Of a stretch of 64,000 nt of DNA, positions 24,424 through 62,773 are shown one piece after another. The notes below the pieces were generated by a model, which worked only from the letters and a program-made list of their open reading frames with translations, ran no database searches and was not told where the DNA came from. Source of the stretch: Eubacterium ventriosum (GTDB taxonomy: Bacteria; Bacillota; Clostridia; Lachnospirales; Lachnospiraceae). The position numbers and the translations under genes were made by a program. The stretch lies in contig NZ_CP102282.1 of NCBI RefSeq assembly GCF_025150745.1, forward strand, positions 248,001 to 312,000, written 5' to 3'. Numbering within the stretch: position 1 is the first letter of the stretch; each line of letters starts with the position of its first letter.

Positions 24424-24533
24424 CTTATTTACTATAGTTTATTCTAATTCTGTGAATCTTATTTGCTATAGTTTATTCTAATTCTGTGAATCTTATTTGC
24501 TATAGTTTATTCTAATTCTGTAAATCTTATTTG
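24424..24533. repeat. 34-bp tandem repeat, three copies plus a partial, running into the end of rpiB
   Basis: Units start at 24424, 24458, 24492 and 24526 (CTTATTTGCTATAGTTTATT and 14 more bases), nearly identical. The last partial unit contains the end of rpiB (codons for DYSK and stop), so the repeat appears to have grown from the gene's 3' end. The remaining gap up to 24235 shows no other structure. Confidence 0.9.
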
Positions 24534-24991
24534 CTATAATCTGCTTCAATTCCATGAATCATGTCAACTCTTGCCTGGTGTCTTCCACCTTCAAACTCTG
24601 CTCCAAAAAATTCATCAAGAATCATTTTTGCAAGTTCTACTCCAACAACTCTTGCGCCAAAAGCAATAACATTAGCATTGTTATGCTGCTTTGTAAGTTT
24701 TGCCGAATAAGGTTCGCTGCAAACTGCTGCAATTACACCTGGAACCTTGTTTGCTGCAACAGAAATACCGATTCCGGTTCCACACATAAGTACACCGTAA
24801 TCTACATCTTTTCTTACAACTGCTTCACCAACTTCACGACCCTTGTTTGGATAATCGCACTTAATAATTTCTCCGTTTTCATCATAGCCTGTGCCATAAT
24901 CAACACATTCGTAGCCCTTTTCTGTCATATATTCAATAAGTTCATTCTTTAAGTCAATTGCTGCATGGTCGCATCCAAATCCAATCTTCAT
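24527..24991 (-). CDS. rpiB: Ribose-5-phosphate isomerase B
   Basis: This 154-residue enzyme interconverts ribose-5-phosphate and ribulose-5-phosphate in the pentose phosphate pathway. It shows GFGCDHAAIDLK at the N-terminus and the active-site Cys in MCGTGIGIS, with N-N-ANVIAFGARV following. A LacAB/allose isomerase is the main alternative within the family, but the context gives no sugar operon. The ribosome site is GAGAGGG. Both flanks carry different tandem repeats. Confidence 0.92.
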   Translation of the reverse strand: MKIGFGCDHAAIDLKNELIEYMTEKGYECVDYGTGYDENGEIIKCDYPNKGREVGEAVVRKDVDYGVLMCGTGIGISVAANKVPGVIAAVCSEPYSAKLTKQHNNANVIAFGARVVGVELAKMILDEFFGAEFEGGRHQARVDMIHGIEADYSK

Positions 24992-25016
24992 TATAAATCC
25001 CTCTCATTTCTTAAAA

Positions 25017-25127
25017 CTATTTACTATATATTCCGTCATCTATCTGACTTTTACTATTTGCTGTACATTCCGCCATCTATCTAACTTTTACTATTTGCTG
25101 TACATTCCGTCATCTATCTGACTTTTA
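25017..25127. repeat. 37-bp tandem repeat, three copies, upstream of rpiB
   Basis: Units begin at 25017, 25054 and 25091 (CTATTTGCTGTACATTCCG and 18 more bases). The core TATTTGCTRTA is shared with the 34-bp repeat on the other side of rpiB. In both sets the copy at the low-coordinate end reads TTTACTATA instead. It lies in the leader or promoter region of rpiB. Confidence 0.9.
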
Positions 25128-25253
25128 CATTCTACTCAATATGTATAAGACTGTCAAATGTACAAGGGATTTGGCTATTTTTCATTTCATTGTGGCATTT
25201 TGTTCGTCTATATACAGTATGCTGTGTGGCCTGTTTTATGATTTGATGGAATG

Positions 25254-25500
25254 TACCCCAAAAATCGAGGTTTTTAATTTTTTGTGGTACGTTTTTAAGT
25301 TATGTAAACTAATCATGTCACATATTCTTGTTTTAATCATATATTTGTTGCATATTGTTTTACATTTTTATAGTTATGTCAACCAATATATCACTTAAAC
25401 TGCTTTCAATCCATTTTGCGTACCCCAAAAATTCAATATATCTTAAATTTTGGGGTACATGATTTTGTTATTAATTTTTTATCTGTTTTATGTAAACCAA
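25254..25500. repeat. GTACC-hairpin element, copy A
   Basis: A 37-bp hairpin (25254-25290, TACCCCAAAAA...TTTTTTGTGGTAC) is followed by GTTATGTAAACTAATCA. After exactly 130 bases comes a second hairpin (25421-25458, TACCCCAAAAATT...AATTTTGGGGTAC), then GTTTTATGTAAACCA. Copy B at 45660 has the same hairpin lengths and the same 130-base interval. The rest of 24992-25701 holds the 37-bp repeats and otherwise shows no gene; the 85-codon open frame over it has no family match I can see. Confidence 0.8.
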
Positions 25501-36148: not shown

Positions 36149-36518
36149 TTTATTTTGTTATACACGGCGAAGCTTCGCTTCACGTATAACACTTCGAATC
36201 CGCTACGCTTCTTCTCAGTGATTATACGGTTGGTTACTACTACTTTTATTTTGTTATACACGACGAAGCTCCGCTTCCCGTATAACACTTCGAATCCGCT
36301 CCGCTTCTTCTCAGTGATTATACGGTTGGTTACTACTACTTTTATTTTGTTATACACGACGAAGCTTCGCTTCCCGCATAACACTTCGAATCCGCTCCGC
36401 TTCTTCTCAGTGATTATACGGTTGGTTACTACTACTTTTATTTTGTTATACACGACGAAGCTTCGCTTCCCGCATAACACTTCGAATCCGCTCCGCTTCT
36501 TCTCAGTGATTATACGGT
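36149..36518. repeat. 96-bp tandem repeat array, nearly four units
   Basis: Units start at 36149, 36245, 36341 and 36437 and differ at few positions. Each contains GTTATACACGACGAAGC, a small GAAGC-TTC-GCTTC hairpin, GTATAACAC and, on the minus strand, CCGTATAATCACTG. The period is a multiple of three, which leaves long frames open on both strands, but these have no start context or family and are judged non-coding. The array fills the space between hup and rqcP. Confidence 0.92.
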
Positions 36519-45659: not shown

Positions 45660-45906
45660 TACCACAAAAAACGCATTTTCCCAAATTTTGTGGTACGTTT
45701 TCAAGTTATGTAAACTAATCACATCACATATTCTTGCTTCAGTCTTCAATTCATCACATATTGACTTTCATTTTAATTATTATGTAAACCACTATGTTAC
45801 TTATACTTGCTTAATGGCAATAAACGTACCTCAAAAATTCACTATTTTTAAAAATTTGGGGTACGCTATCCGATAATAATATTGTTTTCTTGTTTTATGT
45901 AAACCA
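45660..45906. repeat. GTACC-hairpin element, copy B
   Basis: A hairpin at 45660-45696 (37 bp, TACCACAAAAA...TTTTGTGGTAC) is followed by GTTATGTAAACTAATCA. After exactly 130 bases comes a second hairpin at 45827-45864 (38 bp), then GTTTTATGTAAACCA. The spacing is identical to copy A at 25254 although the bases between have diverged. Stem changes are partly compensatory (CCAC/GTGG here, CCCC/GTGG there). No gene is seen in 45538-46208. Confidence 0.8.
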
Positions 45907-45928: not shown

Positions 45929-46083
45929 TCACTCCCGCAATCCTTTCTCAAGTCTTTTCCCACTACATTTTTTGCTTACCGGATTGCTACGTGCTTCGCA
46001 CTCCCGCAATCCTTTCTCAAGTCTTTTCCCACTACATTTTTTGCTTACCGGATTGCTACGTGCTTCGCACTCCCGCAATCCTT
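45929..46083. repeat. 69-bp tandem repeat, two units plus a partial
   Basis: Units start at 45929, 45998 and 46067 (CACTCCCGCAATCCTTTCTC and 49 more bases) and are practically identical. Each contains the short hairpin GTGCTTCGCAC. The period is a multiple of three, which opens several frames on both strands; none looks like a gene. Confidence 0.9.
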
Positions 46084-59793: not shown

Positions 59794-60963
59794 ATGTCTA
59801 TCAAAAAATATGTTGAATCTATTCCTGTAGGACCACTTGCAATTGTTGCATTATCAGGAAGTAAGCAGTTAGGCGAAGCAGTTGACGCTTATATTGCTGA
59901 TTGGAGAAGCCAGAGAATTGAAGCTAAAGAATCACCTATTACTTTCAAGGGTTATACTAAAGATTCTTACCTTCTTGATGTAAAAACACCAAGATTTGGT
60001 ACAGGTGAAGCTAAATGTACTTTAGGCGAATCTGTTCGTGGTACAGACCTTTACATTATCGATGATGTTACTAACTACAGCATTGAATATACTGTTTGCG
60101 GTTGCAAGAATCATATGTCTCCTGATGATCACTTTGCTGACATTAAGAGAGTTATCGCTGCTGCTGCAGGTAAAGCTAGAAAAATTACAGTTATTATGCC
60201 TTTCCTTTATGAAGGAAGACAGCACAGACGTACATCCAGAGAATCTATGGACTGTGCAGTAATGCTTCAGGAATTAGTAAACATGGGCGTAGACAATATT
60301 CTTACTTTTGACGCTCACGATCCTCGTGTAAACAATGCTATTCCTATTAGTGGTTTTGAATCAATTATGCCAACATACCAGTTTATAAAAAATCTTCTTA
60401 GAAATGTTGATGACATTAAGCTTGATGCTGATCATCTTATGGTTATCAGCCCTGACGAAGGTGCTATGGGTAGAGTTGTCTACTACGCTAACGTTCTTGG
60501 AATTAATGTAGGTATGTTCTACAAACGTCGTGATTTTACTACTATCGTAGACGGACGTAATCCTATTGTGGCTCATGAATACCTTGGTGATTCAGTTGAA
60601 GGTAAGGACGTTCTTATTATTGATGATATGATTTCTTCAGGTGATAGCATGCTTGATGTTGCTAAGCAGCTTAAGAAGAGAAAAGCTAACAGAGTATTTG
60701 TTGCTTCTACATTTGGTCTCTTTACTAACGGTCTTGAAAGATTTGATGAAGCTTACGAACAGGGACTTATCTACAGAATCATGACAACTAACTCAATTTA
60801 CCAGTCTCCAGAGCTTCTCAAGAGAGAATGGTACATCAATGTAGACATTACAAAGTTCACTGCAACATTCATTGACAGACTAAATCATGACGCTTCTATA
60901 AGCGATTTATTAAATCCTATAGAAAAAATTAATAAAAAGGTTGCAGAATACAACAAAAGGTAA
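59794..60963 (+). CDS. prs: Ribose-phosphate pyrophosphokinase
   Basis: This 389-residue enzyme makes PRPP for nucleotide, His and Trp synthesis. It shows TFDAHDPRVNNAIPI, the PRPP loop VLIIDDMISSGDSML and the catalytic GRQHRRTSRES segment. It belongs to the long clostridial type, about 70 residues more than the usual 315-residue enzyme. It lies 20 bases after the helicase-loader gene with CGGAGG before its ATG, and ends the unit. Confidence 0.95.
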   Translation: MSIKKYVESIPVGPLAIVALSGSKQLGEAVDAYIADWRSQRIEAKESPITFKGYTKDSYLLDVKTPRFGTGEAKCTLGESVRGTDLYIIDDVTNYSIEYTVCGCKNHMSPDDHFADIKRVIAAAAGKARKITVIMPFLYEGRQHRRTSRESMDCAVMLQELVNMGVDNILTFDAHDPRVNNAIPISGFESIMPTYQFIKNLLRNVDDIKLDADHLMVISPDEGAMGRVVYYANVLGINVGMFYKRRDFTTIVDGRNPIVAHEYLGDSVEGKDVLIIDDMISSGDSMLDVAKQLKKRKANRVFVASTFGLFTNGLERFDEAYEQGLIYRIMTTNSIYQSPELLKREWYINVDITKFTATFIDRLNHDASISDLLNPIEKINKKVAEYNKR

Positions 60964-61031
60964 TATAATGTGACATAGAGGGCTTCGACTTATCCCCCCA
61001 TTTTTTTGTAGAAGCCCCATATACCAAAGGT

Positions 61032-61066
61032 GCTCGCTAGGTTTCCTAGCGAGCGTTTTTCTTTTG
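61032..61066 (+). terminator. Terminator of prs
   Basis: GCTCGCTAGG and CCTAGCGAGC pair around three bases, followed by GTTTTTC. Confidence 0.92.
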
Positions 61067-61169
61067 TGGCAAATTTCTACTTATTAGTGGAATTTGGAAT
61101 CACGCATAGTTTGTGTTGGCAAGAATTTTTTCTGCAATTTCTAGATTTTTGAATTTATTTTGGCGATGT

Positions 61170-61582
61170 ACCCCGCTATAGAATTTTTGTTATTTTTCGG
61201 GGTACGAAATCAATAATTCCCCCTCTCATGGTGCAACGTATTGTATATGATTATGGTCTAAATACCCCGGCATATGAATTTTTTTGATTTTCGGGGTACG
61301 AAATCAATAATTTCCCTTCTCGCGGTGCAACGTATTGTATATGATTATGGTTTAAATACCCCAATATATGAATTTCTTTGATTTTCGGGGTACGTTTTCT
61401 CGATTTTCTCTTTTTATCGCGTAACATACTGTATATGAAAAGTATGAATGTACCCTGATATTTTAAATATTGCTTATTTTGGGGTACACACGTCCAAATC
61501 ATCGCCCTTTTTATACAACATATAGTTTGTGTTTATGAGAAACGTACCCCGACATTTCAATTCTTCCTCTTTTTGAGGTACG
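61170..61582. repeat. Array of five GTACC hairpins with an exact 94-bp period
   Basis: Hairpins of exactly 37 bp (TACCCC...GGGGTAC type) start at 61170, 61264, 61358, 61452 and 61546, separated by exactly 57 bases each. Stem ends and the motif GCAACGTATTGTATATGATT in the intervals are conserved in units 1-2 and diverged in 3-5, yet no length change has occurred. The hairpins resemble those of the elements at 25254 and 45660. The array lies between the converging prs and dacF genes. The open frames crossing it are not convincing genes. Confidence 0.92.
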
Positions 61583-61661: not shown

Positions 61662-61706
61662 CAAAAATCCCCGTAGGAATTGGCTCCTGCCAATTTCCTA
61701 CGGGGG
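61662..61706 (-). terminator. Terminator of the lipoprotein-dacF unit
   Basis: A perfect long stem (CCCCGTAGGAA...TTCCTACGGGG with inner TTGGC/GCCAA) is followed by ATTTTTG on the minus strand. Confidence 0.92.
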
Positions 61707-61735: not shown

Positions 61736-62773
61736 TTACTCCACGCCAAACTTCAACAATTTCTTTGCGTCTGTCCAACGCTGTTCATCTGTGCTGTCAT
61801 TTAAGACTACGCTTATGCATTCCGTATCGCCATTCTTTGCCACTGACACAAGGCACTTGCCTGCAAGGCCTGTACTTCCTGTTTTCATGCCGACACAGTA
61901 CTGGTAGTAGAACTGTCCTGACTTGTCCAATAGGGCATTTGTTGATACCCAAGTCTTGTTTAATGTGCCGGACTTTTCAGACTGTGTTCCGCAAATCTTA
62001 CGAATTGTTTCGTTGTTGTATGCTTCAATTGCAATCTTAGACAAGTCGCTAGCTGATGTGTACTGGTCTGCCGCATCATAGCCATCCGGTGACATAAAAT
62101 GTGTATTTTCAAGTTCCATGTCACGGACATTCTTATTCATCTCATAAACAAAACGCTCAACACACTGTGCTGCTGTAAAAGTTTTTCCTTCGTTAGCAAT
62201 ATTGTCTTTAAGAATTGCTTCGCCTGCTGCTTTTGCCAAAACATAGGCTGCGTCATTTCCTGATGAAATAAGCAAGCCTTCAAGCAACTCCTGAACTGTT
62301 ACAACCTGTCCCTGACTAAAACCTGCCTTACTTGAATCTGCTGCAATCATATTAATTTCACTGCCGATTGTTACTATATCAGTAGTTTTCATATTCTGCA
62401 AAACAGTCAAAGCTGTCATAAGCTTAGTTGTGCTTGCCGGATACATCTTGGCATCGCTGTTTTTTTCATAATAAATCTCTTTTGAATTAACATTCACAAG
62501 AATAGCTGCCTTGGCACTTATAGCCTGGTCAAAACCGCTCTTTCCTGCTGATTCCGTGTATTCGATTGGATGAAGTCCATAATCAGTCCACGGATTTCTT
62601 TCGCTAATCTCATAGTTATCGTGGATAAAATCTTTAACAATAACTTCACTCTGGCTTGTCTTTAAATCGCCTACCGGCTTTGCCTTTCCTATTACAAATG
62701 CATAATCAATTGCTCCAATCATAAGAAGCACTGCAATAACTGCGCTTAATATGCATCTTCCTGTCTTTCTCAT
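61736..62773 (-). CDS. dacF: D-alanyl-D-alanine carboxypeptidase (class A low-molecular-weight PBP)
   Basis: This 345-residue exported enzyme trims the last D-Ala from peptidoglycan. An N-terminal signal/anchor helix (CILSAVIAVLLMIGAIDYAF) is followed by the active-site PASTTKLMTAL (SxxK), the SSGND (SxN) and the GMKTGSTG (KTG) motifs. The chain is shorter at the C-terminus than DacA. The assignment to DacF rather than other carboxypeptidases is by general resemblance. Its start overlaps the lipoprotein stop (ATGA). Confidence 0.9.
   Translation of the reverse strand: MRKTGRCILSAVIAVLLMIGAIDYAFVIGKAKPVGDLKTSQSEVIVKDFIHDNYEISERNPWTDYGLHPIEYTESAGKSGFDQAISAKAAILVNVNSKEIYYEKNSDAKMYPASTTKLMTALTVLQNMKTTDIVTIGSEINMIAADSSKAGFSQGQVVTVQELLEGLLISSGNDAAYVLAKAAGEAILKDNIANEGKTFTAAQCVERFVYEMNKNVRDMELENTHFMSPDGYDAADQYTSASDLSKIAIEAYNNETIRKICGTQSEKSGTLNKTWVSTNALLDKSGQFYYQYCVGMKTGSTGLAGKCLVSVAKNGDTECISVVLNDSTDEQRWTDAKKLLKFGVE

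Follow-up and report, generated by a model that had tools for sequence, protein, structure and literature searches.

A 94-bp-period palindrome array in Eubacterium ventriosum as one of a genome-wide, genus-restricted family of possible protein-site arrays

The window analysed here is a stretch of 64,000 nucleotides, and window coordinates are positions within that stretch; the host chromosome (G000) is a single contig of 2.856 Mb (C1). Two converging genes, both named by recognition of their sequences, enclose the locus: prs (ribose-phosphate pyrophosphokinase, 59794..60963, + strand), for which tblastn found relatives that place the genome in a genus of the Lachnospiraceae, and a gene for a dacA-like D-Ala-D-Ala carboxypeptidase (61736..62773, - strand). 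The intrinsic terminator of prs (61026..61060, + strand) is followed by an array of five palindromes of the form TACCCC-N24-GGGGTA (61169-61580), and past the array an inverted repeat (61668..61706, - strand) reads by eye as the terminator of the carboxypeptidase gene. Sigma-70 promoters were not enriched in the region of the array (3 versus 3.1 expected).

The palindromes, to which no strand is assigned, occupy positions 61169..61204, 61263..61298, 61357..61392, 61451..61486 and 61545..61580, and all four intervals are exactly 94 bp. This confirms the five hairpins with an exact 94-bp period reported in the first-pass annotation of this DNA, with the true starts lying one base earlier. Each palindrome is 36 bp long and extends in most units to 38 bp as GTAC...GTAC (in palindrome 1 by a flanking G and C); palindrome 4 has TACCCT as its left arm and palindrome 5 has GAGGTA as its right arm. 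All four linkers contain, in the same register and on the + strand, a core resembling CAACRTAYWGTWTRTGA, namely CAACGTATTGTATATGA at 61234..61250, the second core at 61328..61344, TAACATACTGTATATGA at 61422..61438 and CAACATATAGTTTGTGT at 61516..61532. Because no core follows palindrome 5, the array both begins and finishes with a palindrome. Units 1 and 2 are 86% similar, units 3-5 show 41-68% similarity to the others, and the similarity of the linkers falls as low as 25-39%.

The pattern TACCCY-N20..30-GGGGTA has 51 forward-strand matches in the whole of G000 and none in a reversed control, and a chain detector run on five shuffled windows gave no chain of three; the array is therefore far beyond chance. 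A DNA search, a pattern search and a sequence model of the palindrome together yielded 16 arrays of this 94-type in G000, comprising 65 palindromes with the consensus YGTACCCCR-N22-YGGGGTACR. The spacing is 94 bp in 48 of 49 cases and 95 bp in the remaining one. Within the palindrome the arms (GTACCCC plus G or A) and the A/T runs inside the arms are conserved, while the centre, like the linkers, is free. A second form consists of two GTACCCC palindromes at a distance of 167-168 bp that enclose a conserved interior, in which TTATGTAAAC boxes stand at fixed places together with TCACATATTCTTG. Five such sites are present in G000 (C1:14677, 273254, 293660, 1043411 and 2767130), and two of these lie in the window, at 25254..25457 (C1:273254) and 45660..45863 (C1:293660), again without an assigned strand.

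If the palindromes worked as RNA, the arrays would be transcribed and their hairpins would act in stability, termination or protein binding. Most units do have arms that can pair, weak hairpins do fold, and the arrays lie downstream of genes. However, an altered arm base is found in 30 of the 65 palindromes of the 94-type, and in 28 of these 30 altered units the change is one-sided. Only three palindromes have both positions of a pair altered, and two of those are misaligned or badly decayed. Covariation in the 94-type alignment (0.052) was below that in shuffled alignments (0.065), and at the seventh arm base (TACCCC plus G or A) the compensated A-T combination was rarer than expected. The same was seen in 88 distinct TTACATG palindromes from sister species (described below), in which the inner positions pair no better than in shuffles, with the exception of the eighth base (80 paired versus 74.9 expected). 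Since arm changes are uncompensated in two dialects, the palindrome is not an RNA or cruciform stem, and from its sequence it reads as two DNA half-sites. Folded singly as RNA, the hairpins of the window array are weak and unequal (-12.1 to -4.9 kcal/mol), and unit 5 has no end stem. An Rfam search gave nothing near the gathering score, with only two weak sub-threshold matches, both outside the array. A role as structured RNA, which the first-pass annotation had proposed, thus found no support in the one-sided changes, the covariation or Rfam; an RNA linker would also not need an exact length, and we regard this explanation as highly improbable.

The same annotation had suggested a termination zone between the converging genes. 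Terminators were observed ahead of arrays, and the true terminators lie outside them; the stems of the arrays enclose long open centres and are followed by no T-run. Standing past ordinary intrinsic terminators and having no T-runs, the arrays do not themselves serve as terminators; they may act as transcription roadblocks. The arrays share with CRISPR arrays short, palindrome-ended repeats at regular intervals, but here the repeats vary, and so do the linkers, which have a common core and are related to one another both inside an array and across arrays.

A second suggestion drawn from the first reading, that length is held while bases drift, could be put in numbers. Neighbouring linkers within 94-type arrays differ by 0-70%, and for 14 adjacent pairs of diverged linkers (22-61% difference) about 597 substitutions were estimated. 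With an indel:substitution ratio of 0.03-0.085, whose upper value comes from a measurement in the intergenic flanks of sister species, the expectation for these 14 pairs is 18-51 indels, whereas a single 1-bp deviation was observed among all 49 spacings (P about 3e-6 for two or fewer indels at a ratio of 0.03). These counts support the suggestion. In addition, at 10.5 bp per helical turn none of the eight array periods departs by more than 0.2 turn from an integral number of turns (Rayleigh p about 0.01, in a small sample in which some periods are shared), which fits the protein-binding array on regularly phased DNA that had also been put forward.

Other arms and periods, which we call dialects, occur both in G000 and in related genomes. 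In G000 at least one further large family, TTACGTGTC...GACACGTAA (TTACGTG), has a period of 71/72 bp, with 41 exact palindromes at about 13 places in a list made from exact matches. A single array of GTACCATA...TATGGTAC has a period of 72 bp, and an array resembling TACCCCATAG, with units about 74 bp apart, runs into it at L118 7314-7900 (C1:2362314 onward), so that two dialects adjoin there. Within the window, positions 36149-36518 hold a near-perfect 96-bp tandem repeat in 3.9 copies (palindrome at 36156), with TGTTATAC...GTATAACA around a CGAAGCTTCG hairpin, which is possibly another dialect. In genomes G004, G007 and G010 the arms are GTACCC(C/T), and a palindrome of 38/39 bp plus a linker of 26 bp gives a period of 64/65 bp. 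G060 and G061 have TTACATG arms (88 and 63 exact palindromes, respectively) with a period of 74/75 bp, and G002, G006, G012, G013, G014 and G022 have 28 to 234 palindromes with TTACATR arms; the period of sister-species arrays with TTACATG or TTACATA arms is 74/75 bp. The TTACATR type was not found in G000, G004 or G010. Variable unit lengths in relatives had been named in advance as a sign of a neutral satellite: the length does differ between lineages (64/65 and 74/75 bp), yet within each it is nearly as fixed as in G000.

Outside the genus, 37 genomes from the same family and order showed no GTACCCC arrays, and no chain was found at the prs loci of more distant Lachnospiraceae. Blastn against plasmid and phage collections gave no match; the pattern matches on viral contigs were four chance ones in unrelated sequence. 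No description of arrays of this kind in Lachnospiraceae turned up in searches of the literature. The array in the window is best explained as one of a genome-wide, genus-restricted family.

The positions of arrays are more stable than their units. Of the six arrays in G004, five are matched by an array at the same gene in G010. At one such site G004, G007 and G010 have near-identical flanks that extend to the first GTACCC and are followed by 3, 5 and 7 units, respectively; the units in G004 bear no relation to the ones in G007 and G010, while the arms and the 64/65-bp period are retained. At the rbfA/truB locus, the G007 counterpart could not be aligned with an array. Positions are also shared across dialects: an array follows prs in both G000 (94 bp) and G060/G061 (74 bp), arrays lie near the same dapL-like aminotransferase gene in L107 and in L169/L179, and an array follows ribF in L117 and L171.

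Arrays of the 94-type lie between converging genes in 9 of 16 cases, compared with 5 of 65 background gaps (p=5e-5). For all dialects taken together, 14 of 45 arrays are convergent and 1 of 45 is divergent, against 5/65 and 9/65 in the background (p=0.002 and 0.045, respectively). The background consists of G000 gaps of at least 300 bp from a simple ORF caller, and its counts are approximate. Along the chromosome, dnaA is located at 516.9 kb, and the GC skew flips sign close to this gene and again between 1.92 and 2.0 Mb. Ten arrays lie less than 550 kb from dnaA, all of them of the 94-type, and the closest arrays of the 71-type are at -554 and +564 kb. The two types segregate along the circle (runs test, p=0.001; p=0.024 after merging arrays less than 20 kb apart). 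A mirror symmetry of these territories about the origin (p about 0.06-0.07 versus other axes, about 0.11 by rotation) is only suggestive, and it is not significant once clustering is kept.

Three junctions in G000 contain arrays: prs-array-dacA (309 kb), histidine kinase-array-ATPase (428 kb) and YitT-array-dnaJ-like (652 kb). In many members of the genus prs converges on the same ATPase gene, and in G014 the convergent partner of the dacA-like gene is a dnaJ-like gene (L237). Judged by gene order, two inversions, each spanning dnaA with both ends in arrays, would yield exactly the three G000 junctions. Such inversions would fit an explanation in which the palindromes are paired half-sites of a site-specific recombinase and the arrays are used for inversion or for their own turnover. 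The fast turnover of units is consistent with this, as is the 167-bp type, whose TTATGTAAAC box resembles the XerD half of dif. However, the half-sites are about 30 bp apart, whereas tyrosine recombinase sites have a core of 6-8 bp, and homologous recombination between similar arrays accounts equally well for the inversions; we therefore consider a recombination system very unlikely.

The main rival explanation is that the arrays are selfish or neutral mosaic repeats (BIME-like or MITE-like), which would be non-autonomous and copied by a putative enzyme that recognises the arms and fixes the length. Any host function would then be absent or incidental, and the location behind genes would reflect tolerance only. 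Dispersed intergenic repeats of species-specific types and 3' location recall REP/BIMEs, in which short palindromes are scattered over the genome in intergenic groups with regular spacing, 3' of genes and between tandem or converging ones (PMC2817692, PMC3733652). The arrays described here are likewise regularly spaced, intergenic and mainly 3' of genes, and like the REP/BIMEs of Proteobacteria, of which BIME-1 binds IHF and BIME-2 gyrase, they could be a protein platform (PMC2817692, PMC3733652). REP palindromes, however, are maintained by complementary mutations (PMC2817692), and no compensatory stem changes are found here. The symmetric consensus YGTACCCCR...YGGGGTACR has no GTAG or CGTC tag, the symmetric half-sites enclose an open centre of 22-27 bp, each dialect has one near-exact period, and the genus is Gram-positive; neither Firmicutes nor Clostridium is named in PMC3733652. 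A search for RAYT (Y1 transposase, PF01797) gave no match in G000 and G010, with control genomes positive. Since G000 has no RAYT gene, the arrays are not classical REP/BIMEs.

In G014 a non-coding repeat of about 1.1 kb is present at about ten loci (L231-L240), with the closest copies 90-97% identical. It has terminal inverted repeats, its ends are AAATTYCGGTTTGT, its edges abut the stop codons of the flanking genes, and it contains a TTACATAT array. This evidently mobile, dispersed element counts against a protein platform and, together with the differing size of arrays at orthologous sites, favours the selfish explanation. On the other hand, no flanks beyond the arrays are shared between copies in G000 or in G060/G061, as a larger mobile unit would require, and the MITE-like features of defined ends, target duplication and many near-identical copies were not seen for those arrays. 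Positions are stable between species rather than hopping, and units from different 94-type arrays, though old and diverged, have kept their length. We consider the selfish explanation possible, though on balance improbable.

Fixed spacing, conserved but uncompensated arms, periods near whole turns and placement past terminators together favour phased arrays of paired DNA half-sites for putative sequence-specific proteins, which may form nucleoprotein barriers or chromosome-organising sites, an explanation that we hold to be just about probable. Each palindrome would comprise two inward-facing half-sites of about 15 bp, with the specific arm GTACCCC(G/A) outermost, followed by an A/T run, and would be bound by a putative dimeric protein. 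Repetition at nearly whole turns would align the dimers along a single face of the DNA, giving a continuous nucleoprotein complex. Located past terminators and in many cases where genes converge, these complexes could be a barrier or insulator for transcription and supercoiling, and/or chromosome-organising sites. Several arm types in one genome would need several proteins, or one with changing specificity, which counts against this explanation. Some arrays of other dialects lie 15-50 bp from the next start codon, a poor fit with a pure barrier role. The genes beside three arrays at 643-654 kb were inspected for a candidate binding protein, and none was convincing.

Two further systems, one of a plasmid and one of phages, are also among the closest known. 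The sopC site of plasmid F is a tandem array of fixed period with a palindromic site for a sequence-specific protein in each unit. The present arrays share the tandem layout and the fixed period, with a putative protein site in each palindrome, but about 30 of them, in at least two dialects, are distributed along one chromosome. Stoperators of cluster A mycobacteriophages are likewise intergenic, dispersed and numerous, and serve one protein that is believed to block transcription; they are single short asymmetric sites in phage genomes, whereas here long palindromes form phased arrays in a host chromosome.

A more far-reaching version of the protein-site explanation, which we offer as speculation and think unlikely, is a genus-specific organising system. 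Several proteins, each with its own arm and period, would coat arrays, with GTACCCC marking the region within about +/-550 kb of the origin and TTACGTG the part of the chromosome farther out. The arrays would also insulate converging genes and provide inversion breakpoints, and arm and period would have been swapped genome-wide between sister species with some positions kept. If the arrays are protein platforms, they would represent an undescribed chromosome-wide nucleoprotein system in a group of gut bacteria, in which recognition sequence and spacing change between sister species, and how DNA-binding specificity and chromosome domains evolve would become directly testable. Even if selfish, they would be a Gram-positive family of palindromic arrays without RAYT, the enzyme held responsible for REP/BIMEs, located at inferred inversion breakpoints.

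Further repeats lie close to the two 167-bp-type pairs of the window. Just ahead of the pair at 25254, positions 24424-25128 contain 34- and 37-bp tandem repeats. A perfect 69-bp tandem repeat with GATTGCTACGTGCTTCG is present at 45930-46083, and the same phrase recurs beside the array at 2377 kb, which makes it another dispersed repeat. Elsewhere in G000, a short hairpin, GTACCCCGATACGGCAAAAATGCTTTTCGGGGTAC, stands by a gene end at C1:1064680 and combines arm-like sequence with terminator-like placement.
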